From assembly GCF_000733775.1 (NCBI RefSeq), contig NZ_JPOE01000002.1, forward strand, positions 806,001-870,000: a stretch of DNA of 64,000 nucleotides, in the 5' to 3' direction. The notes beneath the pieces were generated by a model, which worked only from the letters and a program-made list of their open reading frames with translations, made no database searches and was not told where the DNA came from. Shown here in pieces: positions 30,799-46,289 of this stretch (positions are counted from its first letter, which is position 1; every line of letters starts with the position of its first letter). The position numbers were made by a program, and so were the translations under genes. Origin of the DNA: Thiomonas sp. FB-Cd. GTDB taxonomy: Bacteria; Pseudomonadota; Gammaproteobacteria; Burkholderiales; Burkholderiaceae_C.

Positions 30799-31464
30799 AT
30801 GCGAGTGTTGAAGGCCATTCTAGGAACTGTGCTGGCATTGGTGGGCAGTACGGCTTTGCTGCATCCGGCGCTAGCCGCTGTGAAAACGCCTGCTGTCATG
30901 CCGGTCACGCTGGTCGTGGGCGACAGCCTGTCCGCCGGCTATGGGTTGGAAACAGGTCAGGGATGGGTCAGCCTGATGGCCGCGCGCATGGCCCGCGAGT
31001 TCCCGCGCTGGACGGTGGTCAATGCCAGCGTCAGTGGCGACACTACGGCAGGCGGCCTGGCCCGCCTGCCAGCCCTGCTCGCCCGTGACAAGCCGCGCGT
31101 GGTCATCATCGAGCTCGGCGGAAACGATGCCCTGCGCGGCCTGTCCTTGTCCAACACCCGGGCCAATCTCGCCGCGATGGCGAAACAGTCCAAAGCGGCT
31201 GGTGCGCGCGTCTTGCTGTTGGGCATGCAGATTCCTCCGAATTACGGGCCGGTTTACACCGAGCGTTTTGCAGCGATCTATCCAGCCGTTGCACGGGTCG
31301 AGCATGCCGCGCTGGTTCCCTTTTTTCTGGCCGGCGTGGCCAATCATCCCGACTGGTTCCAGCCCGACAACATTCACCCCACTGCACGGGCGCAGCCAGT
31401 CATGCTCGATAACGTCTGGCGGCAGCTCCTGCCCCTGCTGCGCGCGCCAGGCCCGGCACGATGA
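30799..31464 (+). CDS. tesA: Periplasmic GDSL arylesterase/lysophospholipase, TesA type
   Basis: TesA is a periplasmic SGNH hydrolase acting on thioesters, lysophospholipids and aryl esters. The ATG at 30799 has GGGGG 5 bases upstream and gives a signal peptide, MRVLKAILGTVLALVGSTAL through HPALA. The four SGNH blocks are present: nucleophile S43 in VVGDSLSAGYGL, the Gly of block II, the Asn in GGNDALRG and the catalytic Asp/His in DNIHPTARA. In-frame ATGs up to 21 bases upstream are alternatives. Its end overlaps the selU start in ATGA. Confidence 0.9.
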   Translation: MRVLKAILGTVLALVGSTALLHPALAAVKTPAVMPVTLVVGDSLSAGYGLETGQGWVSLMAARMAREFPRWTVVNASVSGDTTAGGLARLPALLARDKPRVVIIELGGNDALRGLSLSNTRANLAAMAKQSKAAGARVLLLGMQIPPNYGPVYTERFAAIYPAVARVEHAALVPFFLAGVANHPDWFQPDNIHPTARAQPVMLDNVWRQLLPLLRAPGPAR

Positions 31465-32522
31465 GCGTGCACATCATTGCGGCCGATGAGGCGCTGATGC
31501 GACTGGACGCGTACAGCGCTGTGCTGGACGTGCGCAGCCCCGGCGAGTACGCCCTGGACTGCCTGCCCGGAGCTGTCAACTGGCCGGTGCTGGATGACGC
31601 CGAGCGTGAGCGTGTGGGCACGCTGTACGTGCAAGCTGGGGCCTTCGAGGCGAAGCGGCTCGGTGCCGTGCTCGTGGCACGCAACATCGCGCGACACATG
31701 GAGAGCCATGCGCGGGACTGGCCCAAGAGCCACGAGCCGCTGGTGTACTGCTGGCGCGGCGGCAACCGATCGGCGGCGATGGCCCACGTGCTGGGCCAGG
31801 TCGGCTGGCGTGTGCATCTCGTGCAAGGTGGCTACAAGGCGCTGCGCGCTGCGCTCGTCAAGCAGCTCGAGCGACAGGTTGGCAGCCTGCGCCTGCGTGT
31901 CGTATGCGGACCGACGGGCAGCGGCAAGAGCCGGCTGCTGCAGGCCCTGGCTCGCCAAGGGGCCCAGGTTCTGGATCTGGAGCAGCTCGCCGCCCATCGC
32001 GGCTCCGTGCTTGGTGCCATGGAGGACGAGGCACAGCCCACGCAGAAGCAGTTCGAAACCCGGATCTGGAACACCTTGCGCAAATTTGACCCCTCGCAAA
32101 CGGTGTTTGTCGAAAGTGAGAGCCGAAAAATCGGGCGCCTTCAGCTTCCGGTCACCTTGCTCGCATGCATGCACGCTAGCGCGTGCATGCGACTGCAGGC
32201 AAGCTTGCCGGTGCGCGTGCAACTGCTCCTGCAGGACTATGCCGCGCTCACGCGCAGCCCACAGGAACTCAACCTCCGGCTGGACGCGCTCACCGAGCTG
32301 CGCGGCAAGGTAACCATTGCTCGCTGGCACAGCCTGGTCGATGCGGGGACGTTTGCCACGTTGGTCGAGGATCTGTTGGCGCAGCATTACGACCCCAGCT
32401 ACGCCCAATCGATGGCACGCAACTACGCGGGCTTTGGGTCCTGCCGGGCGTGGCCGGTCGAGTCGGCCGATGCGGGTGCGTTCGATACTTTGGCGCGCGA
32501 GATCCTGCAAGCAGCCTGTTGA
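31461..32522 (+). CDS. selU: tRNA 2-selenouridine synthase
   Basis: SelU (MnmH, YbbB) replaces sulfur by selenium at 2-thiouridine in the wobble position of some tRNAs, through a geranylated intermediate. The N-terminal rhodanese domain has the catalytic cysteine C97 in CWRGGNRS, the same position as in E. coli. A P-loop (GPTGSGKSRLL) lies near residue 152 and is followed by LDLEQLAAHRGSVLGA. The 353 residues fit the family. The start overlaps the tesA stop. No selD, which supplies selenophosphate, is in the window. A perfect 10-bp inverted repeat occurs inside the gene at 32167-32190. Confidence 0.92.
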   Translation: MSVHIIAADEALMRLDAYSAVLDVRSPGEYALDCLPGAVNWPVLDDAERERVGTLYVQAGAFEAKRLGAVLVARNIARHMESHARDWPKSHEPLVYCWRGGNRSAAMAHVLGQVGWRVHLVQGGYKALRAALVKQLERQVGSLRLRVVCGPTGSGKSRLLQALARQGAQVLDLEQLAAHRGSVLGAMEDEAQPTQKQFETRIWNTLRKFDPSQTVFVESESRKIGRLQLPVTLLACMHASACMRLQASLPVRVQLLLQDYAALTRSPQELNLRLDALTELRGKVTIARWHSLVDAGTFATLVEDLLAQHYDPSYAQSMARNYAGFGSCRAWPVESADAGAFDTLAREILQAAC

Positions 32523-32562: not shown

Positions 32563-33084
32563 TCAGGCGCCTCGGCGCACGGCGCGCAAGATGCCCTGCA
32601 ACAGGGCTTCGGGGCTGGGCGGGCAGCCCGGCACCGTCACGTCCACCGGCAACACGTTGGCGACGCGCCCGCAGCTCGCGTAGCTTTCCCCGAAGATGCC
32701 GCCCGAACATGCGCAGTCCCCAGCGGCCACCACCAGCTTCGGATCGGGCATGGCATCAAAGGTTCGGCGCAGCGCCCCGTGCATATGGCGCGATACGGGG
32801 CCCGTCACCAGCAGCAGGTCCGCATGGCGCGGACTGGCAACGAACTGGATGCCCAGCCCCTCGATGTTGTAGTACGGGTTGGACAGCGCGTTGACCTCCA
32901 GTTCACAGCCGTTGCATGAGCCGGCGTCGACGACACGCACCGTCAGGGCGCGCCCGAGAACGCGCAACAGTTCGCTCCGAACCTTCTGCTCGGCTCCGGG
33001 CTCCGCGGCTCCTCCATGGTCGTCGGTTGCAGGGGTCTCGGTGATACGCCCGACGCGCGCGATTTGTCGTAAGGTCTGCCACAT
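32563..33084 (-). CDS. Complex I/hydrogenase-4 small (PSST/NuoB-like) subunit
   Basis: This is the HyfI/NuoB-type iron-sulfur subunit that would carry the N2-like 4Fe-4S cluster. Cluster cysteines are visible at C57 and C60 (GSCNGCELEV), C124 or C126 (GDCACSGG) and C154 (PGCPPSP). The first 40 residues are a poorly conserved extension. It is the last gene of the six-gene membrane-complex operon, 10 bases after the large subunit. Because the large subunit lacks NiFe ligands, this subunit probably serves an Ehr-type complex with no hydrogenase activity. The electron donor is unknown, since no HyfA- or HyfH-type ferredoxin gene is present. Confidence 0.88.
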   Translation of the reverse strand: MWQTLRQIARVGRITETPATDDHGGAAEPGAEQKVRSELLRVLGRALTVRVVDAGSCNGCELEVNALSNPYYNIEGLGIQFVASPRHADLLLVTGPVSRHMHGALRRTFDAMPDPKLVVAAGDCACSGGIFGESYASCGRVANVLPVDVTVPGCPPSPEALLQGILRAVRRGA

Positions 33085-33094
33085 GGTCCGCCCC

Positions 33095-34615
33095 TCAGCC
33101 GTCGTGCCCCGAATAGGACAGGTTGAACGATTTGTTGATCAGCGGGAAGTCGGGCACGATATCCTTGATGACCGCCCATTCCAAGGCCGGCCAGTTTTGC
33201 CAGGATGGATCGTGCGGATGGCAACGTGCGATGCTTGCGCCCGGGCCGGCTTGCAGAGCAATGAAGGCCGGGCCGCGCCAGCCTTCCACCACGCCGAGTG
33301 CGAGACCCGGAGCGATGGTGGCCGGCATGGGCGTCGCCACCATGCCATCGGGAAGTGTGGCGAGCAACTCGCCACACAGGCGCAGGCTTTCGAACAGTTC
33401 GGCGAAGCGCACGGCCACGCGGGCCGCCACGTCGCCGCCAATCTCAACCGCGACCTTCACCCCAAGGCGGTCATAGGGCGCGAAGCCGGGCAGACAGCGC
33501 AAATCCAAGTCCTGGCCGCTTGCGCGGGCCGCCAGGCCCAAGAGACCCAAATTGCGCGCCAGCTCGGGCGACACACGCCCAGTGGTCTTGAACCGGTCCT
33601 GCAGTCCTTCGTGCTGATCAAGAATTGCCTTGAGTCTTTGTACCTGCACCTGCAGGCTGTCGCACTGTGCCCGCAACGACTCGCACGCATCAGGATCGGG
33701 ATCCACGGCCACCCCTCCGGGCTGCACAGCATCCATCGGGTAGCGTGCGCCGAAAACGCGTGCATTCATGCGCAGGACGTCTTCCTTGAGCCGTGAGAAC
33801 TGCGCGAGCGCGAAACCGAAGCCACCGTCGTTGCCGATGGCGCCAATGTCCCCCAGGTGGTTCGCCAGGCGCTCGCGCTCGAGCACGATGGCGCGCCAAT
33901 GCAGGGCGCGGGGAGGCGGCTGCACGCCGGCCAAGGCTTCCAGGGCCATGCAATAGGCCCAGGCATAGGCGGTCGCGCTGTCGCCACTCAGCCGCGCAGC
34001 CAAGCGAACCCCCTCGACCAGCGACAGTTGCTCAAAGCGCTTTTCCACGCCTTTATGGGTAAACCCCAGGCGTTGTTCCAGACGCAACACTTTCTCTCCA
34101 ACCACGGAAAACCGGAATTGGCCTGGTTCGATCACCCCCGCATGGACCGGGCCCACGGCGATTTCATGAACGCCCTCGCCGTCCACGCCAATGAAGGCAT
34201 AGCGCTCCAGGGCTGGATCCCCACACGCAGCCGCAGCAGGCGCATCATGCCGCAGGGGAAACACGTCATCGGGCCAGGCCGCGTGGCGCAGCCACGGCCG
34301 TGCGTCCATGCCCAGTGCCTGAAGGCCAAGCAAATCGCGCATCGCACGTTGCAGGCGCTCAGCCACCGGAAACAGATCGTGCAACGCGGGATAGTGCGTC
34401 ACGCCGGGGGGAAGCTGGAGTGTGGCCAAAGTCAGAACCTGGCCGTGCAACCAGCACGCATGGACCGTGAATCCACCATGCAGCGCTCGCGCGTCATCGC
34501 CCCACAGCGTGAGTAGCCGTGCCCCTTGTGCGTGCATGCCCCGGGCCAGCGCAGCCCACGCCTGGGCATCCACGCAATGATGATCCACCGGCATCACAGA
34601 GCACAGCGCTGCCAT
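33095..34615 (-). CDS. Hydrogenase-4-like large subunit lacking NiFe ligands (Ehr type)
   Basis: The 506-residue protein fuses a NuoC-like N-terminal domain (residues about 1-135) to a NuoD/HycE-like domain (GPVHAGVIEPGQFRFSVVGE near 155; FTHKGVEKRFEQLSLVEG near 185). In HycE the first ligand pair sits in RVCGICGFAH. Here the aligned segment is RLSGDSATAY, with Ser210 and Ser213 in place of both cysteines. The second pair (DPCYSC in HycE) corresponds to NLSYSG near residues 498-503, and the protein ends just after it. All four NiFe-binding cysteines are therefore missing. This fits energy-converting-hydrogenase-related complexes, not active formate hydrogenlyase. No maturation genes are nearby. 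Confidence 0.88.
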   Translation of the reverse strand: MAALCSVMPVDHHCVDAQAWAALARGMHAQGARLLTLWGDDARALHGGFTVHACWLHGQVLTLATLQLPPGVTHYPALHDLFPVAERLQRAMRDLLGLQALGMDARPWLRHAAWPDDVFPLRHDAPAAAACGDPALERYAFIGVDGEGVHEIAVGPVHAGVIEPGQFRFSVVGEKVLRLEQRLGFTHKGVEKRFEQLSLVEGVRLAARLSGDSATAYAWAYCMALEALAGVQPPPRALHWRAIVLERERLANHLGDIGAIGNDGGFGFALAQFSRLKEDVLRMNARVFGARYPMDAVQPGGVAVDPDPDACESLRAQCDSLQVQVQRLKAILDQHEGLQDRFKTTGRVSPELARNLGLLGLAARASGQDLDLRCLPGFAPYDRLGVKVAVEIGGDVAARVAVRFAELFESLRLCGELLATLPDGMVATPMPATIAPGLALGVVEGWRGPAFIALQAGPGASIARCHPHDPSWQNWPALEWAVIKDIVPDFPLINKSFNLSYSGHDG

Positions 34616-34619
34616 CGCT

Positions 34620-36071
34620 TCATCCTCCGATCATGCTGGCGGCCAAATGCCACCAGGACACGAGAAAAGCGGGGATCCACAGGCCCAGGAGCAAGACGAG
34701 GCCGAGATGGACGAAAACCGGAATCATGTCGGGATGGTGCGGCAGCTTGCGCAGGGTGCTGGCGCCAAAGACCATGCCCTGCACGCGCAGAAAAATCGCC
34801 CCGAAGGCCACACCGAGAGCCAGCAGCAAAATTGGCGTGGCCCAGGGTTGGGCCTGCATTGCCGTGGTCAGGATCAGGAATTCGCTTGCGAAGATGCCGA
34901 AGGGCGGCAGCCCCACGATGGCCAAGGCGCCCATCATCAGCCCCCAGCCCAGCGCCGGGGACTGCTCGCGCAAGCCCTGAATGGCATCCATGCGTTGCGT
35001 CCCCGCTTTTTGCGTGGCGTGCCCAGTGGTAAAAAAGATCGCGCTCTTGGTCAACGCATGACCCGTCATATGGAGCAAGGCGGCAAAGTTGGCGACTGGT
35101 CCGCCCATGCCAAAGGCGAAGGTGATGATGCCCATATGCTCGATGGACGAATAGGCGAACATGCGTTTGACATCCTTTTGCCGCCAGAGCAAAAAAGCAC
35201 CCACGAGCACGGACAGCAGTCCAAATCCCATCAGCATCTGCCCAGGCCACGCCGCGTGCAGGCTGCCTTCGACCAGCACCTTGCAGCGCATCACCGCATA
35301 CAAAGCCACATTGAGCAGCAGACCCGAGAGCACTGCCGACACGGGCGTCGGACCTTCGGCGTGCGCGTCAGGCAACCAACTGTGCAGGGGCGCAAGCCCG
35401 ACCTTGGTGCCGTAACCCACCAGCAGAAAAACGAAGGCGATGCCGATGACGCTGGGTTCGAGCCTGCCCTTCACGGCGTTGAGATGGGTCCACAGCAAGG
35501 CGCGCATGCCCTCGGAGCCGAGCACTCTCTCGGCGGCGAAGTACAGCAGAACGGTCCCGAAGAGCGCCAGCGCAATGCCCACGCCGCAGAGGATGAAGTA
35601 TTTCCACGCTGCCTCCAGGCTCGCCTTGGTCCGGTAAAGCGAAACCAGAAGCACTGTGGACAGCGTGGCAGCCTCCATCGCCACCCAGAGAATCCCCATG
35701 TTGTTGGTGGACAGCGCCAACAACATGGTGAACATGAAGAGTTGGTACATGCTGTGGTACAGACGAAGCCGCGCGGGGCTCAGTTTGCCGTGCTCGTGCT
35801 CGATGCGCATGTAGGGGCGTGAGAAAGCCGCCGTGGTCATCCCGATGAAGGCCGTGAGGGTGACCAGGAACACATTAAAGGGGTCGATGAAAAACTGCTC
35901 GGCAAGCACCTGCATCGGCCCTTGAGCGATGACCTCCACGGTGAGCACACACGCAGCCACGAAGGTTGCCGTGCTCGCCGCCAGGTTCAGCCACGGGGCC
36001 CACGGACGATGGCCAACCAGCGCCAACAGTGCGGCGCCGGCCAGCGGCAGTGCAAGCAGGATCAGGAGCAC
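34620..36071 (-). CDS. Hydrogenase-4 component F-like antiporter subunit (NuoN/Mrp type)
   Basis: HyfF-type subunits belong to the NuoL/M/N and Mrp antiporter family and are thought to move protons or sodium ions. This 483-residue membrane protein has about 14 hydrophobic segments. It shows the family elements GYGTKVGLAPLHSWLPDAHAEGPTPVSA near residue 220 and FAYSSIEHMGIITFAFG near residue 305, with conserved Lys and Glu/His residues in membrane segments. The start is GTG at 36071, three bases after the hyfE stop. It is one of two antiporter-like subunits in the operon. Confidence 0.88.
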   Translation of the reverse strand: MLLILLALPLAGAALLALVGHRPWAPWLNLAASTATFVAACVLTVEVIAQGPMQVLAEQFFIDPFNVFLVTLTAFIGMTTAAFSRPYMRIEHEHGKLSPARLRLYHSMYQLFMFTMLLALSTNNMGILWVAMEAATLSTVLLVSLYRTKASLEAAWKYFILCGVGIALALFGTVLLYFAAERVLGSEGMRALLWTHLNAVKGRLEPSVIGIAFVFLLVGYGTKVGLAPLHSWLPDAHAEGPTPVSAVLSGLLLNVALYAVMRCKVLVEGSLHAAWPGQMLMGFGLLSVLVGAFLLWRQKDVKRMFAYSSIEHMGIITFAFGMGGPVANFAALLHMTGHALTKSAIFFTTGHATQKAGTQRMDAIQGLREQSPALGWGLMMGALAIVGLPPFGIFASEFLILTTAMQAQPWATPILLLALGVAFGAIFLRVQGMVFGASTLRKLPHHPDMIPVFVHLGLVLLLGLWIPAFLVSWWHLAASMIGG

Positions 36072-36074
36072 CCG

Positions 36075-36773
36075 TTAGTCCTCTTTGAGTGTTTCCATAT
36101 GGTGCAGGTCCAGGCTGTCGAACTGTTCGCGGATCTGGAAGAAAAAGATGCCCAGGATGAAGACCCCCACGAGCACATCCAGTCCAATGCCCAGCTCCAC
36201 CACCATGGGCATGCCATACGTGGCACTGGTGGCGGCGAACAGCAGGCCGTTTTCCATGGCCAGGAAGCCCACAACCTGGGCGATAGCCTTGCGCCGCACG
36301 ATCATCATCAGGAAGGCGATGAACACCACCGCGATGGCGATCCCAAGCGTGCTGCGCGTCGCAGCCCCGGCGAATTGCGAAATCGGTTGCGCCAGCACAA
36401 ACGCGAAGATCACGAGAAGAATGCCAATGATTTGCATGGTGGGAATGTTCACCAGGGTTTCCGTGTCCCATTCCGCGTGCAGCTTGCCAATGAGTTTGTG
36501 CAGCACATAGGGCAGCACAAGCACTTTGAGCAGTAGCGTCAGCGCAGCCGATTCATACAGGTCGGGCTGGTTGGTCGACCACCCGACCACGACGGCGCAT
36601 GCCACGAGCGTCGCGCCCTGGGCGGCAAAGAGATTGACGAGATTGACCACCCGTCGCTGCGCAAGCATGGCGAAGGACAGCAGCAGGAGCAAGGCGGCAA
36701 ACAGGTGGATGAGCTGGATCCCGACCGGGGAGGCCGCAGCGATGGAGTTCGACAGTGCGATTGACGTCGTCAT
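36075..36773 (-). CDS. Hydrogenase-4 component E-like membrane subunit (NuoK-like)
   Basis: HyfE-type proteins carry a NuoK-like core that links antiporter subunits to the rest of the complex. The 232 residues contain about seven membrane segments, with LAMENGLLFAATSATYGMPMVVELGIGLD near residue 165; glutamates within membrane helices here are like those in NuoK. It lies between hyfC- and hyfF-like genes with 3-base gaps on both sides, so all are one transcript. HyfD, which in E. coli precedes HyfE, is absent. Confidence 0.85.
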   Translation of the reverse strand: MTTSIALSNSIAAASPVGIQLIHLFAALLLLLSFAMLAQRRVVNLVNLFAAQGATLVACAVVVGWSTNQPDLYESAALTLLLKVLVLPYVLHKLIGKLHAEWDTETLVNIPTMQIIGILLVIFAFVLAQPISQFAGAATRSTLGIAIAVVFIAFLMMIVRRKAIAQVVGFLAMENGLLFAATSATYGMPMVVELGIGLDVLVGVFILGIFFFQIREQFDSLDLHHMETLKED

Positions 36774-36776
36774 GCC

Positions 36777-37727
36777 TCAATCCCCCAGCATCAGCCGCAC
36801 GAGCAAGCCGAGCACGGCGAGCAAGAAGGCTGTAGCGAGAAATTCCGGCGCGCGGAAAATGCGCAGCTTCGCGCTCAGGGTTTCGATCAATCCAACGGCA
36901 AACCCGGCAACGGCAAGTTTGAGCACGAGCGGCGGCAGCGCGGGCAGCAGCCACAGCACGCCATCGGCTCGGTTGGCCATGCCCCAAGGCAGGAACAGTG
37001 CAAAGCCGATGCAGGCATAGTTGAAGAGCTTGAGGCTGCTGGCCCATTCAATCAGCGCCAAATGACGCGCGGAATATTCGAGCACCATGGCCTCGTGGAT
37101 CATGGTGAGCTCCAGGTGCGTGGTTGGGTTGTCGACGGGAATCCGCGCGTTCTCCGCCAGAAGGACCATGACGAAGGCCACCCCGGCAAAGGCCAGACTG
37201 GCGTGAATGCCCAGGGCACGCGACTGCAGGGCTTCGGCGATGGTGGGCAAAAGCGTGCTGCCGGTGATGAGCGACGAGGTGAACAGAACCATCAAGAGCG
37301 CAGGTTCGGCCAAGAAACCAACCATCATTTCGCGGCGCGATCCCATGCTGCCAAACGCGGTGCCGATATCCATGCCGGCCAGCGCAATGAACACGCGTCC
37401 CAGCGCGAACAGGCCGACGAGCGCGATGGCATCGGCAGCCGACGCAAACGGCAGGTCGGTGGACAGCGAGGGAATGATCGCCGCTGCGGCCACCATCACC
37501 CCGAACAGGATGTAGGGCACGGCGCGAAACAGCGGCGTGGCGGTGTGCGCCAGCACCGCATCCTTATGAAACAGCTTGCGCAGGCGCCAGTACGGCAGCC
37601 AGATTGGCGGCGCAGTGCGGTTGGAAAGCCACGCGCGGCACTGCATGACCCAACCGGAAAACAGCGGTGCGATAAGCACCGAAACCGTCACCGCGAACAA
37701 CTGGGTGAAGAGCCCGGAAGGATTCAT
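36777..37727 (-). CDS. Hydrogenase-4 component C-like membrane subunit (NuoH-like)
   Basis: HyfC/NuoH-type subunits anchor the peripheral arm and form the entry to the membrane arm. The ATG at 37727 overlaps the hyfB-like stop (ATGA) and gives 316 residues with about eight membrane segments. Family landmarks are PYWRLRKLFHKDAV near residue 40, the acidic cytoplasmic loop ARIPVDNPTTHLELTMIHEAMVLEYS near residue 200 and a hydrophobic C-terminus. The glutamates of that loop are kept, as in quinone- or membrane-linked homologues. Confidence 0.9.
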   Translation of the reverse strand: MNPSGLFTQLFAVTVSVLIAPLFSGWVMQCRAWLSNRTAPPIWLPYWRLRKLFHKDAVLAHTATPLFRAVPYILFGVMVAAAAIIPSLSTDLPFASAADAIALVGLFALGRVFIALAGMDIGTAFGSMGSRREMMVGFLAEPALLMVLFTSSLITGSTLLPTIAEALQSRALGIHASLAFAGVAFVMVLLAENARIPVDNPTTHLELTMIHEAMVLEYSARHLALIEWASSLKLFNYACIGFALFLPWGMANRADGVLWLLPALPPLVLKLAVAGFAVGLIETLSAKLRIFRAPEFLATAFLLAVLGLLVRLMLGD

Positions 37728-39727
37728 CGCACCACCACCATGAGCAACACCAGCAGGGTCATGAAGCTGTAGAGGAGGTAAATGGCGATGCGCCCCTGCT
37801 GAATGCGGCCAACCTGTTGCGCGAGCCACAAAACCGCATTGCCCAGAGGGGTGTACACCTGTGCCCAGAAGCGATCCACCACCGCCACGCGGTACCGCGG
37901 CGCGATGTCCGACGGCGCGGGCAACTCGACATGGGTCTGAAAGAACGGCTCAAACAAGCGCCGGATCGGCTGCCCGAACCCCTCCGCCGTATCCTGCATG
38001 CGTGCCGTTTGGTCGGGTGAGCCGCAATCCCATGGGTCGGCACGACGCGTGCGCCCGGTGTACAGGCGATGCGTGCCCCAGACCGTGATTGCAATCACCA
38101 GCAGGCCTGCCGCCAGCACCACGATGGGGTTGTAAGCGGCGCGCTGTGCTGACATGGGGACAAGCCAAGCCCAATTGCCGCTCTGCGCAAGCGCCTGCCC
38201 AAGCAGCGACACATTGACGTGATCAATCATCTGCAGCACGAGGCCCGGCAGGATCCCGAGCAGCACGCAACCTGCAGCCAGCCACACGAGGCCAAAGCGC
38301 TCCAGCCAGCCTGCGTCATGGGCGTGCTCCAACTGCGCCTCCCGGTGGTTGCCCAGAAAGATCACGCCGTAAAACTTCACCATCACGTACGCAGCCAGCG
38401 CGGCGGTCAGCACCAGCACGGCAGCTCCCAGCGGAATGAGCATGTTGAAAAATGGCTCAGGGATCCTCGGTGTGAAGAGAAAGGCTTGCAAGAGCAGCCA
38501 TTCGGCGACGAATCCGTTGAGTGGCGGCAGTCCCGCAATCGCCAGAGTGCCGACCAGAGCCGTCCAGCCCACCCAGGGCATGCGCCGGAGCAAGCCACCC
38601 AAATGTCCCAAACTGCGCTGGCGCGTGGCGTGCAGGACGGATCCCGTGGCGAGGAACAACAGGCTTTTGAAAAACGCATGGTTGAGCAGGTGGTACAGCA
38701 TGGCCGCCAAGGCCAGCGCTGCAAGCACGGGCATGCCCACGCCATGAAAGACAAGCGCCAGGCCCATGGCCGCAAAGGCGATGGCAATGTTCTCAATCGA
38801 CGAATAGGCCAGAAGCCGCTTCATATCGCTTTGCACCGCGGCGAACAAGACACCAAACAGCCCGCCGAACAGCCCCAGAACCAGCAGCGGAACGCCCCAC
38901 CACCACACCGGTGCGTGCAGGAGATCAAAGCTCACCCGCAGCAATCCGTACAGCGCAGTCTTGAGCATCACGCCGCTCATGAGCGCCGATACTGGAGAGG
39001 GGGCAGCCGGGTGCGCCTCGGGCAACCAGATATGCAGCGGCACCAAGCCCGCCTTGGCGCCAAAGCCAACGGTGGCCAGGCCAAAGGCCAAGCTAGACCA
39101 CGCAAGCGACAGATGGTCCAAGCGCATGGCCGCGAAAGTCAGGCCATTGCCACCGCCCTGCATCATCACGCCGAAACACAGGAGCAACGCAATCGCGCCA
39201 AGGTGGGCAAGCAGCAGGTAGGTGAACCCGGCGCTGCGAATCTCGGCAATGCGATGCTGGCTGACAACGAGGAAATACGAGGCAAGCGCCATCACCTCCC
39301 AGGCAACCATGAACGTATAGGCGTCAGCCGCCAGCATCACCATGCACATGGCAGCGAGAAAGACGTGATATTGCAGCCCCAGAAGCCCGGGAGCCGTGCC
39401 TTCACCGGAGCGAAAGTAGCCTGCGGCGAAAACGGAGATCCCCACGCTGGAGGCGCCAAGCAGAAATAAAAAGAAACCTGACAACGCGTCGAGCCGCAGA
39501 TGCATGGGCAGACCCGGCAGGCCCACGGGCAGAACCATGGACGTCGCCGGCATCAGCAGCGCCGCCAAGCCCACGCCAGCCATCAGTGCGCTGCCAACGG
39601 CGCCCAGCGGAAACAATCCGTGCGCGACCCAGCGCGTCGAGCGCGGCGCCAGCATGCCAGCCAGTCCGATCGTCACCCAAGCTGCGACCACGCCCAAGGC
39701 GGCAGGCAAAAGTCCGAGTGGATCCAT
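37724..39727 (-). CDS. Hydrogenase-4 component B-like antiporter subunit (NuoL-like)
   Basis: This large membrane subunit of the NuoL/HyfB family has about 16 hydrophobic segments and would take part in ion translocation. The ATG at 39727 (MDPLGLLPAALG) matches where HyfB proteins begin and gives 667 residues; an ATG at 39772 would add 15. Neither start has a clear ribosome-binding site. Landmarks are VMLAADAYTFMVAWEVMALASYFLV near residue 140, GAKAGLVPLHIWLPEAHPAAPSPVSALMSG near residue 220 and YSSIENIAIAF near residue 300. It is the first gene of the operon and is divergent from a small ribbon-helix-helix gene. Confidence 0.9.
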   Translation of the reverse strand: MDPLGLLPAALGVVAAWVTIGLAGMLAPRSTRWVAHGLFPLGAVGSALMAGVGLAALLMPATSMVLPVGLPGLPMHLRLDALSGFFLFLLGASSVGISVFAAGYFRSGEGTAPGLLGLQYHVFLAAMCMVMLAADAYTFMVAWEVMALASYFLVVSQHRIAEIRSAGFTYLLLAHLGAIALLLCFGVMMQGGGNGLTFAAMRLDHLSLAWSSLAFGLATVGFGAKAGLVPLHIWLPEAHPAAPSPVSALMSGVMLKTALYGLLRVSFDLLHAPVWWWGVPLLVLGLFGGLFGVLFAAVQSDMKRLLAYSSIENIAIAFAAMGLALVFHGVGMPVLAALALAAMLYHLLNHAFFKSLLFLATGSVLHATRQRSLGHLGGLLRRMPWVGWTALVGTLAIAGLPPLNGFVAEWLLLQAFLFTPRIPEPFFNMLIPLGAAVLVLTAALAAYVMVKFYGVIFLGNHREAQLEHAHDAGWLERFGLVWLAAGCVLLGILPGLVLQMIDHVNVSLLGQALAQSGNWAWLVPMSAQRAAYNPIVVLAAGLLVIAITVWGTHRLYTGRTRRADPWDCGSPDQTARMQDTAEGFGQPIRRLFEPFFQTHVELPAPSDIAPRYRVAVVDRFWAQVYTPLGNAVLWLAQQVGRIQQGRIAIYLLYSFMTLLVLLMVVVR

Positions 39728-39798: not shown

Positions 39799-39990
39799 AT
39801 GGAACGACGGACCACACGATTGACGCTTTTGATCGACCCGCAGAAAAAAGCGGTGTTCGAGCATCTTTGCGCACGCGAAGATCAGACGCCGTCGCAAGTC
39901 GTGCGGCGTCTGATCCGTGACTACATCGAAGCGCAGCTCGGTCGCCCATTGAAGCCGGGCGAATCGGTGGACGACGCGCTCAAGCGCTGA
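39799..39990 (+). CDS. Small ribbon-helix-helix (CopG/Arc-like) protein
   Basis: The ATG at 39799 gives a 63-residue protein, MERRTTRLTLLIDPQKKAVF onward. The strand RTTRLTLLID followed by two helices (KKAVFEHLCARED and TPSQVVRRLIRDYIEAQL) is the ribbon-helix-helix DNA-binding layout. It is divergent from the hyf-like operon across 71 bases and is a good candidate to regulate that operon and itself. No toxin gene is adjacent, so an antitoxin role is less likely. An in-frame upstream start at 39739 would place extra residues before the DNA-binding strand and seems wrong. Confidence 0.75.
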   Translation: MERRTTRLTLLIDPQKKAVFEHLCAREDQTPSQVVRRLIRDYIEAQLGRPLKPGESVDDALKR

Positions 39991-40055: not shown

Positions 40056-41138
40056 TTAGGCCGCGAGGGGCGCGTTGTGCGCGAGTCGAGCGCGTTTCGC
40101 CTGCCGAAACAAATCAGCCGGGGGAAGGCCTCGCAAGGCCGGATCGCTGAGCACCTGGCGCCACAGCCGGGCGCCAGGTGCTCCTTTCCAGAGGTTAAGC
40201 ATGTGGCGCGTCACGGCAAATGGGGGAGTCCCCTTCCCGGCCATGCGCTCGGCGTAACCGAGCATTGCGTCCTCAACCTCATCAGGCGTTGCCCGTGGCG
40301 GTTGCACGCCGAAGTACAGCGCATCCCAACTTGCCAGCCACCAAGGGCGCTGATACGCCTCGCGGCCGATCATGACGCCATCGACATGGCGAAGGTGCTC
40401 CGCCACCTGCGAATCGGTCTTCACCCCGCCATTGATCACGATGGTCAGATGGGGGAACTCGCGCTTGAGTCGATACACGAACTCGTGCCGCAGGGGCGGG
40501 ATCTCGCGGTTGTCTTTCGGACTCAAGCCTTGGAGCCAGGCGTTGCGCGCGTGGACGATGAACACTGAACAGCCGGCTTCGGCCACGGTGCCCACGAAAT
40601 CCTGCACGAACCCAAAGCTTTCCACTTGGTCGATGCCGATGCGGTGCTTGACGGTGATCGGCAATGCGTCGCCCACAGCGTCGCGCATCGCCGCTACGCC
40701 GTCCCGGACCAACGCCGGCTCAGCCATCAGGCAGGCGCCAAAGGCACCCCGCTGCACCCTCTCGCTGGGGCATCCGCAGTTCAGATTCACCTCGGCATAG
40801 CCCCACCGGTGCGCCAGGGTGGCGCAAGCGGCGAGGTCCGCGGGTTCACTGCCGCCCAGCTGCAAGGCTAGAGGCTGCTCCTCGGCACTGAAATCCAGAT
40901 GCCGGGATTGATCGCCATGCAACAGCGCGCCCGTGGTCACCATCTCGGTGTACAGGCGCGCGTGGCGGCTCAGCTGCCGATGGAAATAGCGGCAATGGCG
41001 ATCGGTCCAGTCGAGCATTGGGGCCACCGCCAGCGTCCAGGCACTGGATGGACCAGGAAGCGGCCGATCGTTCGTCGCCTGGTGCGGGCGCGCCGGTGAT
41101 GCACTGCTGGATGCCAGGGAAATGTTGGGCGTTTGCAT
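40056..41138 (-). CDS. dusA: tRNA dihydrouridine synthase A
   Basis: DusA is an FMN-dependent enzyme that reduces uridines 20 and 20a in the tRNA D-loop. The ATG at 41138 gives 360 residues; the open frame reaches further upstream through a repeat-rich leader with no family similarity. The barrel starts with AVAPMLDWTDRHCRYFHR. The catalytic cysteine is in LNCGCPSERVQRGAFGACLM near residue 120. Conserved VKHRIGID, NDNREIPPL-like KDNREIPPL and INGGVKT segments follow. A perfect 14-bp inverted repeat lies within its 3' coding part (40149-40183). The 32 or so residues before the barrel are variable. Confidence 0.93.
   Translation of the reverse strand: MQTPNISLASSSASPARPHQATNDRPLPGPSSAWTLAVAPMLDWTDRHCRYFHRQLSRHARLYTEMVTTGALLHGDQSRHLDFSAEEQPLALQLGGSEPADLAACATLAHRWGYAEVNLNCGCPSERVQRGAFGACLMAEPALVRDGVAAMRDAVGDALPITVKHRIGIDQVESFGFVQDFVGTVAEAGCSVFIVHARNAWLQGLSPKDNREIPPLRHEFVYRLKREFPHLTIVINGGVKTDSQVAEHLRHVDGVMIGREAYQRPWWLASWDALYFGVQPPRATPDEVEDAMLGYAERMAGKGTPPFAVTRHMLNLWKGAPGARLWRQVLSDPALRGLPPADLFRQAKRARLAHNAPLAA
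40149..40183. repeat. Perfect 14-bp inverted repeat inside dusA
   Basis: GAGCACCTGGCGCC (40149-40162) pairs perfectly with 40170-40183 across a 7-base loop. It lies within the dusA coding sequence, about 100 bases before the stop. There is no T-run on the minus strand after it. Confidence 0.7.
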
Positions 41139-41450
41139 GAATGAGTACGGTGTGGCTGCCGCGAGTACGGTGTGGCTGCCGCGCACACCGCAGCGGCGGT
41201 GTGCGGGTGCCACACGGGTGTTCGATCCCGACATTTTCGCTTGCCGTGGCAAAGGCAGCAGCGTGGTGCCCATCCTGTGGGCGACGCCTGAACCTGACGG
41301 GGTGGCTGCGCAGCGATGGACCGCCCGGCCACAGGACAGGGCTTTTCGCGGCATTCCGGGTTTTGTTGATGTAACGCAATCCGATCAAACGTTTCGTAGT
41401 GTAACCTTCAATAGTTAATAGCCGGTATCTTTTACCCATAGGAGTTTGTC
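41139..41450. other. Repeat-bearing intergenic region between dusA and the repeat-protein gene
   Basis: This 312-base gap separates divergent genes. It holds two exact copies of a 20-bp unit (GAGTACGGTGTGGCTGCCGC at 41143-41162 and 41163-41182). These are followed by a perfect 10-bp hairpin (41182-41191 with 41196-41205). The final 80 bases are AT-richer and should contain the promoter of the plus-strand gene, whose AGGAG lies 6 bases before its ATG. No further gene is seen. Confidence 0.6.
41143..41182. repeat. Tandem 20-bp direct repeat (two copies)
   Basis: Two adjacent identical 20-bp units begin 5 bases upstream of the dusA start codon, in its leader. A perfect 10-bp hairpin follows directly. 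Confidence 0.8.
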
Positions 41451-41825
41451 ATGAAATCCTCGTCTTTGCGTAGAAGTCTTGTTCTTTCAGCCTGCGCGTT
41501 GCTTGTTGGCTCAGCCTTTGCTGCCGGTGGTGGAGCAGGCGGAGGTGGCATGGGTGGCGGCATGGGTGGCGGGATGGGTGGCGGGATGGGTGGCGGATAT
41601 GGCGGGGGGATGGGCGCTGGTCCACAAGGCCAGAACCAGAACCAGAACCAGAATCAGATTCAGAACCAGAATCAAAACCAAAACCAGTACCAGAATCGGA
41701 ACCAAAACCAAAACCAAAACCAAAACCAAAACCAAAACCAGACACCGGACCAGACACGCGACCAGACACGTGACCAGACACGCGACCAGACACGCGACCA
41801 GACCCAGGATCAATTGCAGAAATAG
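41451..41825 (+). CDS. Exported low-complexity Gly/Met, Gln/Asn and Asp-Gln-Thr-Arg repeat protein
   Basis: The ATG has AGGAG 6 bases upstream, and the 124-residue product has three repeat zones after a signal peptide (MKSSSLRRSLVLSACALLVG through SAFA, cleavage likely after A24). Residues 25-58 are Gly-rich with repeated GGGM units. Residues 60-97 are nearly pure alternating Gln-Asn. Residues 100-120 are DQTR repeats ending in KTE-free DQLQK. A lipobox-like LSAC at residues 12-15 makes lipoprotein export possible but less likely. There is no globular domain. Good signals for translation and export argue that it is a real gene. The function is unknown. The methionines and the RND metal-type efflux operon 179 bases downstream raise metal binding as one idea; the QN tract could also form amyloid-like assemblies. 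Confidence 0.75.
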   Translation: MKSSSLRRSLVLSACALLVGSAFAAGGGAGGGGMGGGMGGGMGGGMGGGYGGGMGAGPQGQNQNQNQNQIQNQNQNQNQYQNRNQNQNQNQNQNQNQTPDQTRDQTRDQTRDQTRDQTQDQLQK

Positions 41826-41834: not shown

Positions 41835-42003
41835 ATGCGAGGCGTCGGGATCAGAGCGAGCTGGTCGAGGGTGTCGCAACGCGGCTAGTCCGCAGACGCT
41901 GCGATCAGTTCGCCACGTTGAACCCGGAGACCATTGGCGGGTGGGGTGCGCTTCTCCAGGCGCTTCGCCGTCCATTCGCACCAACCAATCATGGAGAGCG
42001 GCC

Positions 42004-43163
<1,160 letters not shown>

Positions 43164-43167
<4 letters not shown>

Positions 43168-46100
43168 TTCTGCACACGCTCACCCAGGCAGCCCTGCGCC
43201 AACGGCTCATTGCCATTGGCGCCATGCTGGCGCTAGTCATTGGCGGAATCATTGCATGGCGATCGTTGCCTGTGGACGCCTTCCCCGATGTGTCCTCGCC
43301 GCAGGTGAAGGTCATCATGAAGGCGCCGGGCATGACCCCCGAGGAGGTGGAAACCCGCATCGTGCTGCCTATTGAGCAGGAAATGCTGGGCATTGCAGGC
43401 AAACGCATGGTGCGCTCCATTTCAAAATACGGGATCGCCGACATCACGGTGGACTTCAACGAGGGAACCGACGTGTACTGGGCGCGCCAACAAGTTGCTG
43501 AGGCGCTCGCCAATGCACGGGGCGAGCTTCCCGTCTCGGCACAAGGCGGTCTCGCGCCAATCACCACGCCGCTGTCCGATCTTTACATGTTCACCATTCA
43601 GGGCAATGCCACCCTCGAGCAAAAGCGCAGCACCCTGCAATGGGTCATCCGCCCTGCCCTGCGGACGGTTCCCGGCGTCGCGGATGTGAACATGCTTGGT
43701 GGCGATGTGCGCGTCTTCGAGGTCCAGCCGGAATTGGCCAAGCTTGCGGCATGGGGCCTCTCGCTCAGCCAACTGCGCATGGCACTTTCGTCAAACAACG
43801 GCAATGACGGCGCTGGACGTCTCGATGAAGGCGAGGAAACACGCATCGTGCGTGTCCAGGGCGCCTTTGCCAATGCAGAGGACATCCGCAACACGGTCAT
43901 TGCCACCGTGCGCGGCACACCGGTTCGCGTCGCCGACGTGGCGCAGGTCGACATCGCAAGAAGCACGCCTTACGGTATCGTCACCTCGGACGGCACGGGT
44001 GAGACCGTCGAGGGAATCGTGCTCGGTTTACGCGGTGCCAACGCGTCGCAAGTCATCGCGGGAGTGAAGGCGCGCTTGGCCGATCTCGAGCCCAGGCTGC
44101 CCCAGAACATGAAATTGCGTGTCTTCTACGATCGCAGCCAGCTCGTGGAGCGTGCCGTGGGCACGGTGATGCGCGCGCTGATGGAAGCCGTTGTGCTGGT
44201 GGTGGTGATGCTCCTGGCTTTTCTCGGCAACTGGCGTGCCGCACTCGTGGTGGCCATCACCCTGCCGCTTTCAGCCCTGGCTACCTTTTTGCTCATGCGC
44301 GTGGCTGGCCTCTCCGCCAATTTGATGAGTCTGGGGGGATTGGCCATCGCGCTGGGCATGCTGGTCGATGCGGCCGTGGTCGTGGTCGAGAATCTGGTGA
44401 ACCACATGAGCCATGATCCCCAACGCGCAGTGGACCCCGACCCCGGCTCGGCCACCAGCGATCGCCTCACCCGCATTCTGCGCGGCGTGAGCGAAGTGGC
44501 AGGCCCGGTGCTCTCGGGCGTGGCCATCATTGCCATCGTTTTCCTGCCGCTGCTTTCCCTCGAGGGCTTGGAGGGCAAGCTGTTTCGCCCTGTTGCATTG
44601 ACCATCGTGTTCGCCTTGGGCGCCTCGCTGCTCATCGCCCTGACCATCGTGCCGGTGATGGCCTCGCTGCTCCTCAAGACAATGCCTCACCGCGACCCGT
44701 GGCTCGTGCGCCAACTCTCGGCCGGGTACCGCTGGTTGCTGCAGTGGAGCTTTGCCCATAGCCGCATCGTGGTAGCGGTTGCGCTCGCATCCTTGCTGGC
44801 CGCAGGATTTGCCTATACGCGGGTGGGCAAGGCGTTCATGCCGACCCTTGACGAGGGCGACCTGATCGTGCAGTTGCAAAAGCTCCCGTCAGTGAGCCTT
44901 GGCGCGACCGCCGCGCTGGATCTGCGGGTGGAACGCGCCGTGCTCAAGACGGTTCCCGAGGTCAAGTCCATTGTGGCACGCAGTGGCTCGGACGACCTCG
45001 GGCTCGACCCGATGGGCTTGAACGAAACCGACATGTTCCTCGTGCTCAAACCTGCCGCCGAATGGCGAGGCAACAAGGACTCTGTGGTCGCGTCCATCCG
45101 AAAGGTCCTGGAGAACTTTCCCGGCTTGGATTACAGCTTCACCCAGCCCATCGAGATGCGCGTGTCGGAGATGCTCACCGGCTCCCGCGGCGACCTCGTG
45201 GTGAAGATCTTTGGTCCGGACATCGGGCAGCTCGGCCAGTTGGCGCAAGAAGTGGCGCAAGTCCTGCGCGGCCTGCCCGGAGCGCAGGAGGTTCTGGCCG
45301 CGCGACCCGAGGGGGTCCAGTACCTGACCGTGCGGATCAATCGCCTCGCTGCGGGCCGGGCAGGATTCGACATCGACACCCTGCAGCAGGACCTGCGCGC
45401 CTTGGTCGAGGGTCAGCCCGTGGGTACCGTGCTCCAGGGCATACGCCGCACCCCGGTGTTGCTGCGCGGCAACCCCGATCTGCGCCGAAACCCGCAGACA
45501 TTCGCGAGTGCGATGCTCACGGCGTCAGACGGCACGAGCTTGCCGCTGTCCCACTTGGCACAATTGGTGTCGACGGCTGGACCCGTATTGGTGACCCATG
45601 AGGACGGCAGCCGCTTTGCGGCGGTTCAGGCCAATGTGAGCGGACGCGATCTGGTGAGCTATGTGGACGATGCCAAGCGCGCCGTGGCCGAGAAAATCAA
45701 GCTGCCCGAAGGTGTGCGCCTGCAGTGGGGCGGCCAGTTCGAGAACCAGCAACGCGCGGCCGCCCGCCTGGGCCTGGTCGTGCCCCTGGCGTTGGCGCTC
45801 ATTTTCGTCCTGCTGATGACGACCTTCGGTTCGGTACGCCAATCCGTGCTGGTGTTTGCCAACATCCCCTTCGCGTTGGTCGGTGGCATTTTGGCGCTGT
45901 GGGCAAGTGGTCAATATCTGTCGGTGCCGGCCTCGGTTGGCTTCATCGCGTTGCTGGGCATTGCCGTGCTTAACGGCGTCGTGCTGGTCAGCCACTTCAA
46001 TGAATTGATGCAGCGCGGTGTGCCATTGGCTCAGGCCGTGCACGACGGCGCGATCCGGCGCCTGCGCCCCGTGATGATGACGGCGTGCATCACCGGCCTT

Positions 46101-46289
46101 GGCCTCGTTCCGCTGCTTTCGGCCACGGGGCCGGGCTCGGAAATCCAAAAGCCTCTTGCCATTGTCGTGGTCGGGGGCCTTGTGAGCTCCACAGCCTTGA
46201 CCCTCGTCCTCTTGCCGCTTCTTTTCGCACGCTTTGGTCTGCCGCGCCGCGCACGCGAGGCTGAAGCCCACCCAGCGGAGAATGCCTGA
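43164..46289 (+). CDS. RND efflux permease, heavy-metal (CzcA/CusA) type
   Basis: This is a proton-driven inner membrane pump of the HME-RND family with 1041 residues and 12 membrane segments. The start is GTG at 43164, overlapping the adaptor stop. HME landmarks are LPVDAFPDVSSPQVKV near residue 32 and YGIADITVDFNEGTDVYWARQQV near residue 90. In transmembrane helix 4 the sequence LGGLAIALGMLVDAAVVVVEN keeps Asp and Glu but has Ala where CzcA has DFG, which resembles CusA-type pumps. The C-terminal half has LQWGGQFENQQRA and FIALLGIAVLNGVVLVSHF. Substrate ions cannot be fixed from sequence; Cu/Ag or divalent metals are both possible. Confidence 0.92.

Follow-up and report, generated by a model that had tools for sequence, protein, structure and literature searches.

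The DNA analysed here, hereafter the window, is a stretch of 64,000 nucleotides from Thiomonas sp. FB-Cd (contig NZ_JPOE01000002.1, positions 806,001 to 870,000). On its minus strand, at 32563-39727, it carries six tightly packed genes, hyqB, hyqC, hyqE, hyqF, hyqG and hyqI, and this operon is an intact representative of a widespread complex of a described type, Hyq. The NiFe-free state of the complex is nearly certain, and it is very highly probable that Hyq is not a NiFe hydrogenase. The best overall explanation, which we put forward tentatively, is that it works as a reversible redox-driven ion pump. The reading frames and profile-family matches confirm the tight packing and the gene order B-C-E-F-G-I given by an earlier reading of the letters alone (the sequence-only reading) and agree with it that the operon holds no genes for HyfD or for HyfA/HyfH.

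Large subunit and pocket

In an alignment with E. coli HycE, HyfG and NuoCD, the NiFe ligand positions of the large subunit HyqG are taken by Ser210, Ser213, Ser500 and Gly503. The segment R208-L-S210-G-D212-S213 aligns with R-V-C-G-I-C and N498-L-S500-Y-S-G503 with D-P-C-Y-S-C, and no shifted cysteine is seen inside either ligand loop. The sequence-only reading, which had reported both CxxC pairs as replaced (Ser210/Ser213, NLSYSG) and had named displaced cysteines as a possible flaw, is upheld on both points. The alignment of HyqG with HycE of E. coli spans residues 56-503 (184.8 bits); those with MbhL (102 bits) and with complex I Nqo4 (103 bits) span ~151-436. Three residues follow the last ligand position, as in NuoD, against 33-42 in all 12 ligand-bearing large subunits compared; a C-terminal tail for protease maturation is absent from HyqG. 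The protein search gave at least 8000 candidates at E <= 0.001, of which 120 relatives were listed. In these and the query, NLSYSG is found in 109 of 121 aligned sequences, and Cys at position 210 is kept in 11 (RLCGDS in 10, RVCGDS in one). The predicted structure of HyqG has a mean predicted local distance difference test (pLDDT) score of 82.8, and its best fold matches are E. coli HycE and then complex I. Because pLDDT falls below 50 at residues 142-187 (including Glu163 and His187) and 487-506 (the second ligand loop), no pocket geometry was taken from the model.

The residues around the lost ligands form a pattern peculiar to Hyq. Asp212, Asp256, Asn262, Asp469, Asn494, Lys495 and Asn498 each occur in 50 of 50 Hyq rows of the alignment and in none of the 12 ligand-bearing or two Nuo rows; among the eight other ligandless rows, Asp212, Asn494 and Lys495 are found in one and Asp469 in three. 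Asp263, aligned with Nqo4 Asp139, is common to the Hyq (50/50) and Nuo (2/2) rows and is present in 0/12 ligand-bearing ones. Arg447 is also kept in Hyq. Since the Hyq-specific residues are invariant, and the NiFe ligands and the quinone-headgroup residues discussed below are gone, the alignment indicates a pocket that has been remodelled and is held under constraint, and that resembles neither a NiFe site nor the pockets of complex I or MBS. Of the three chemistries known in the group, those of H2, quinone and sulfane sulfur, it would fit none. By analogy with hydrogenases, in which the two ligand loops lie near each other, Asp212 and Lys495 are probably close in space. A candidate CHxHD metal motif, C465-H466-P-H468-D469, seen in the nearest relatives, was rejected, C465 being present in 26, H466 in 23 and H468 in 19 of the 50 Hyq rows; D469 alone of this stretch is kept in all of them.

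The small subunit HyqI retains its four cluster cysteines in every row examined (C57 84/84, C60 84/84, C124 83/83, C154 82/82), in line with the sequence-only reading. The membrane subunits are equally constant at charged positions: E144, K225 and E409 of HyqB in 70/70 rows, E133 (78/78), K223 (80/80) and E397 (82/82) of HyqF, and E192, R195, D199, E206, E212 and E217 of HyqC in all 72-73 rows. We take these charged residues to be the counterparts of known proton-path residues.

Conservation and occurrence in Burkholderiales

The six hyq genes are under purifying selection. The ratio of non-synonymous to synonymous substitution rates (dN/dS) is 0.09-0.18 for all six against two of the nearest loci (L028 and L029), 0.01-0.09 against a third (L027; comparison limited to B, C, E, F and G) and 0.22-0.30 against a more distant one (L082). 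A maximum-likelihood (ML) tree of 55 large subunits places Hyq (33 rows), including HyqG of R. leguminosarum, in one clade with a Shimodaira-Hasegawa-like approximate likelihood ratio test (SH-aLRT) value of 97, and the 12 ligand-bearing large subunits in a separate clade (92); Hyq groups with the other ligandless rows (99). The tree, which the sequence-only reading had called for, thus sets Hyq apart from the ligand-bearing enzymes. It was built fast (LG+G4, with SH-aLRT as the sole support measure) from 55 of 72 rows, 17 similar Hyq rows having been thinned; a copy of the window protein (L137) and a truncated one (L093) had been dropped before thinning, and two outlying rows are long-branched. 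Gene order is exactly B-C-E-F-G-I in 52 of 86 loci, part of the rest being cut by contig ends. The nearest named relative among the matches listed is Thiomonas sp. FB-6, with a large subunit 70% identical, and the large subunit of one metagenome-assembled genome is 96% identical to the window HyqG. Two Hyq operons stand in tandem on one strand in 3 of the 86 loci and in genome G126 (C46:11717-20668), where the two large subunits score 653 and 816 bits with the same profile.

The occurrence of Hyq was surveyed in one draw of 399 Burkholderiales genomes (assemblies at least 90% complete), used for three profile searches. A genome was counted as Hyq-positive with a match above 600 bits or, in one case (G010), with two contig-split pieces; 8 of the 106 genomes with E <= 1e-60 were left uncounted, namely five with ligand-bearing subunits, two with another ligandless type, and G263. 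HyqG is found in 98 of the 399 genomes, about a quarter. A hypD match occurs in 136 genomes, 134 of them over cut-off, and 55 genomes have nifH over cut-off. In the profile search a hypD match is absent from 36 of the 98 carriers; these are spread over 20 of 50 families, and 23 of them are at least 98% complete. NifH is absent from 65 of the 98, and both genes from 33. None of the 104 HyqG loci, 68 of them in hypD-bearing genomes, lies within 50 kb of hypD, a distance test limited by short contigs, with only 9 loci sharing a contig with hypD, at least 183 kb away. As a positive control, five of five ligand-bearing group-4 loci are within 13 kb of hypD. Of nine other ligandless loci one, which belongs to the window's own genome, is 11.7 kb from hypD. 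Because 36 of 98 carriers are without hypD, the survey argues against NiFe hydrogen chemistry as the general job of Hyq.

In the window genome, hypD occurs twice, at least 705 kb from the operon, together with three HycI-type matches and four open frames elsewhere that strongly match NiFe hydrogenase large subunits; a profile search found no nifH over cut-off. The sequence-only reading had named the co-occurrence of maturation genes and an endopeptidase with the operon as grounds for refutation; this test has to be refined, given the distance of hypD from the operon here and its absence from 36 carriers.

Two observations on related systems may be added. The five control loci (L143-L147, Burkholderiales) encode group-4 large subunits with RICGICGS and DPCFSC, a tail of 33-42 residues, and an adjacent hypD. 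Outside the window, the same genome has a second ligandless complex (L005, C2 ~119.2-126.7 kb, the locus at 11.7 kb from hypD) in the order C-E-F-G-I-B; in its small subunit a ferredoxin domain with two clusters is fused on, and its large subunit reads RVSGID and terminates in AGADR.

Possible functions of the complex

In the explanation that we tentatively prefer, the operon encodes a six-subunit, NiFe-free core that is related to both formate hydrogenlyase and complex I. Because no HyfA/HyfH-like (ferredoxin-type) subunit is encoded, a soluble low-potential carrier, probably ferredoxin or flavodoxin, would dock directly on HyqI. Electrons would pass between the single 4Fe-4S cluster of HyqI and a small molecule in the G/I/C chamber, and this redox step would drive ions through B and F. 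The process would be reversible, so that in the reverse run ferredoxin could be reduced at the expense of the membrane potential. The conservation described above makes such coupling of a redox step to ion flow, which the sequence-only reading had suggested, appear probable. Quinone heads the candidates for this small molecule, a possible but doubtful assignment by the residues present. A precedent is MBS, a group-4 relative reported to use a different substrate after the loss of its NiFe site (PMC7684303).

Several points weigh against this explanation. It is from their common operon that the six proteins are taken to form a single complex, and no redox partner or electron donor was recognised among the recurrent neighbours of the 86 loci. 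His38 and Tyr87 of Nqo4, described as the residues that hold the quinone headgroup in complex I (PMC7684303), correspond to Ile162 and Gly211, which are Ile and Gly in 50/50 Hyq rows; the alignment of His38 with Ile162 weakens the quinone assignment. Glu163, the counterpart of MbhL Glu21 needed for proton reduction, is retained in every Hyq (50/50), ligand-bearing and other ligandless row and in no Nuo row. Hyq also co-occurs above expectation with hypD, at an odds ratio of 5.3 (crude) or 3.4 (within families, z 3.0), and with nifH, at 6.4 (crude) or 2.7 (within families, z 2.6). Shared lifestyle could explain both associations, which nevertheless leave room for a link of Hyq to H2 metabolism in some hosts. 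Finally, in Azorhizobium caulinodans a hyq deletion is reported to raise H2 release at 20 uM O2 and to lower it at < 1 uM O2 (PMC3357923). The electron routing proposed above might change H2 release there without Hyq handling H2.

There is also a published view that Hyq is a hydrogenase. Two papers report hyq-dependent H2 uptake and evolution in A. caulinodans and name R. leguminosarum as a hyq carrier (PMC2650096, PMC3357923); the one from 2012 states that HyqG of eight genera is without both CxxC motifs, calls the NiFe site 'uncertain, if not unlikely', and nonetheless assigns H2:quinone oxidoreduction to Hyq (PMC3357923). A genuine bidirectional H2:quinone oxidoreductase without a canonical NiFe site, as proposed for this endo-hydrogenase, would explain the H2 phenotypes of the hyqRI deletion, the retention of Glu163, Arg447 and the HyqI cysteines, and the mild tendency to occur with hypD and nifH within families. 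It is very improbable in view of the four missing ligands, the 36 carriers without hypD and 65 without nifH, and a window genome itself lacking nifH over cut-off; moreover, the strain nifK hupSL hyqRI is not in the published table, as read, and a further, uncharacterised H2 source is mentioned (PMC3357923). A bolder variant places NiFe-free, Hyp-free H2 chemistry at the HyqI cluster beside a pocket of Asp212, Lys495 and Asn498, with Glu163 and Arg447 delivering protons. If true, this would amount to a novel type of hydrogenase catalysis, and the loss of the ligands would no longer conflict with the phenotypes seen in A. caulinodans; we consider it very improbable.

A stronger competitor, though still unlikely, is the reduction or oxidation of a different small molecule (e.g., sulfane sulfur, as in MBS) at the HyqI cluster, the pocket being of a fourth type and ion pumping unchanged. 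The HyqG pocket is indeed unlike those of NiFe enzymes and complex I, the quinone-site residues are absent, as in MBS, and MBS shows that a ligandless relative can switch substrate (PMC7684303). The window's relatives, moreover, include Thiomonas, a genus of the sulfur-oxidiser type. However, HyqG has the Glu but none of the four ligand cysteines, whereas in MBS the equivalent of Glu21 is gone and two of the four remain; HyqG matches MbsL (6u8y) with 58 bits, below HycE, Nqo4 and MbhL, and the wide host range gives no pointer to sulfur. A partnership with a cytoplasmic formate dehydrogenase has been proposed for energy-converting-hydrogenase-related (Ehr) complexes of Margulisbacteria and Saganbacteria (PMC6349859) and of Geobacter (PMC7894505). 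For Hyq it is hardly to be expected: with controls picked by hand from the same families where possible (none for three families), the alpha subunit is over cut-off in 28 of 36 Hyq-positive and 34 of 44 Hyq-negative genomes without hypD (62 in total), which is no enrichment and leaves eight carriers without the enzyme, and no such gene is among the recurrent neighbours examined. The same comparison gave no enrichment of cbb3 oxidase over cut-off (24/36 vs. 31/44, total 55). Hyq might also be an ion antiporter without redox function, or a conformational device, its redox part being structural; in favour of this, Mrp-type antiporter subunits make up most of the mass and no electron donor is known. 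The HyqI cysteines, kept in every row, and the invariant pocket residues make this reading improbable. As for a decaying hydrogenase relic, which the loss of all four ligands might suggest, it is already contradicted by the low dN/dS (0.01-0.18 against the three nearest loci), quite apart from the conserved gene order and from the fact that many genera, all in a single clade, share this replacement; its probability is negligible.

The survey narrows the published hydrogenase claim, since it argues that NiFe chemistry is unavailable to more than one third of the carriers and the recycling of nitrogenase H2 to two thirds of them. The 33 hosts without hypD and nifH offer clean backgrounds for finding the Hyq substrate. 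Annotations of relatives name them as subunits of a hydrogenase or of NADH dehydrogenase. Hyq, a complex of six subunits with a single predicted cluster, could serve as a very small model for the coupling of redox chemistry to ion pumping in complex I.

Operon layout, neighbours and known systems

The operon is flanked by dusA (40056-41354, minus strand) and mnmH (31461-32522, plus strand). The features are collected in Table 1; the starts of all six hyq genes were picked from the reading frames, and the hyqC start overlaps the hyqB stop. The sequence-only reading had missed the ribbon-helix-helix (RHH) gene divergent from hyqB. It probably encodes a regulator, and the interval between the two genes is likely, from its position, to be a divergent promoter.

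Table 1. The hyq operon and the adjoining divergent gene, in window coordinates
Feature	Position	Strand	Evidence
hyqB, HyfB/NuoL-like antiporter-type subunit, 667 aa	37724-39727	-	hydrogenase 4 subunit B NF005086, 863 bits (cut-off 667; queried from earlier start)
hyqC, HyfC/NuoH-like membrane anchor, 316 aa	36777-37727	-	NADHdh PF00146, 100 bits (queried from earlier start)
hyqE, HyfE-like membrane subunit, 232 aa	36075-36773	-	hydrogenase 4 membrane subunit NF008556, 88.6 bits (below cut-off of 136; operon position conserved)
hyqF, HyfF/NuoM-N-like antiporter-type subunit, 483 aa	34620-36071	-	hydrogenase 4 subunit F NF005045, 853 bits (cut-off 543)
hyqG, large subunit, NuoC plus NuoD type, 506 aa	33095-34615	-	Complex1_49kDa + Complex1_30kDa
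hyqG codons 208-213, RLSGDS in place of RVCGIC	33977-33994	-	alignment
hyqG codons 498-503, NLSYSG in place of DPCYSC	33107-33124	-	alignment
hyqI, small subunit, 173 aa, cluster cysteines C57, C60, C124, C154	32563-33084	-	Oxidored_q6 PF01058, 111 bits
RHH gene, 63 aa, divergent from hyqB	39799-39990	+	PF19839, 77.6 bits (cut-off 23.4)
intergenic 71 bp, hyqB start codon to RHH start codon	39728-39798	.	likely divergent promoter

Neighbours were compared in the 86 loci (80 genome contigs and 6 plasmids), in lists bounded by contig ends and with clusters resembling antisense readings excluded from the count. Relatives of the RHH gene turn up close to the operon in 21 loci, a spermidine-synthase-like gene in 18 (e.g., L021:1657-2493), metG in 11, plus one weak match, and a DUF1275/YoaK protein in 10. 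A SulP-family anion transporter is found in nine (L072, L081, L052, L086, L061, L090, L041, L093 and L064; family assignment checked for L061 only), which might connect the operon with the uptake of sulfate or bicarbonate. Farther along the window, 41451-41825 (+) encodes a protein of low complexity in which Gly/Met and Gln/Asn abound, with a marginal Pfam match. It is followed by a long Gln-Ala repeat protein that, read from the translation, resembles an RND adaptor (41941-43167, +), and then by a 1041-aa RND-type pump, likewise read from the translation (43164-46289).

The closest described system is the Hyq 'endo-hydrogenase' of A. caulinodans (hyqRBCEFGI), which has the six-gene set and order found here, is likewise without HyfA and HyfD genes, and has a large subunit without either CxxC pair and a small subunit with one CxxC and two more cysteines (PMC2650096, PMC3357923). 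It differs in that hyqR heads the operon, where we find the RHH gene on the opposite strand upstream of hyqB, and in its reported NIFA control and recycling of nitrogenase H2, the window genome having no nifH over cut-off. Three HyqG cysteines reported as conserved on the basis of eight genera, 258, 491 and 497 (PMC3357923), are Cys in R. leguminosarum, the numbering being matched by position, and Gly261, Ile493 and Leu499 in the window protein; they are therefore not general to the Hyq clade.

The assignment of the operon to Ehr by the sequence-only reading holds in the broad sense, but its statement that the reaction is unknown overlooked the published Hyq H2:quinone claim with its deletion phenotypes. 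The term Ehr was reportedly defined by Coppi in 2005 and Marreiros in 2013. The Ehr complexes of Geobacter, comammox Nitrospira, ammonia-oxidizing archaea and Margulisbacteria have a group-4-like large subunit without CxxC motifs, and the window operon shares their broad definition (group-4-like large and small subunits, antiporter-type subunits, missing NiFe motifs). Ehr is an umbrella term: the Geobacter subunits, EhrA, B, C, L and S, are different ones (PMC7894505), and the Margulisbacteria complex is proposed to act with formate dehydrogenase (PMC6349859).

Among characterised enzymes, the Hyf and Hyc formate hydrogenlyases of E. coli have homologous B, C, E, F, G and I subunits, and HycE is the best PDB match of HyqG by sequence and by fold. 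Unlike Hyq, they have four NiFe cysteines and a 35-residue tail, and their ferredoxin subunits A/H (or B/F), as well as subunit D of Hyf, are not encoded in the hyq operon. MBS of Pyrococcus furiosus resembles Hyq in the loss of NiFe chemistry and of both quinone-headgroup residues. It differs in keeping two of four ligand cysteines without the Glu21 equivalent (none of four, with Glu163, in HyqG) and in the ferredoxin-type clusters of MbsN, a subunit with no match in the hyq operon (PMC7684303). The proximal cluster of MBS has three Cys ligands, a fourth Cys being out of reach (PMC7684303); the four cysteines in the HyqI sequence would be compatible with three ligands as well as with four. 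Complex I (NuoBCDHLM), in turn, has an NADH module and NuoI, which Hyq is without, and the H38 and Y87 positions replaced in HyqG; in common with Hyq it has NuoCD-, NuoB-, NuoH- and NuoL/M-like subunits, a NuoD end resembled by that of HyqG, and the aspartate that is Asp263 here and Asp139 in Nqo4.

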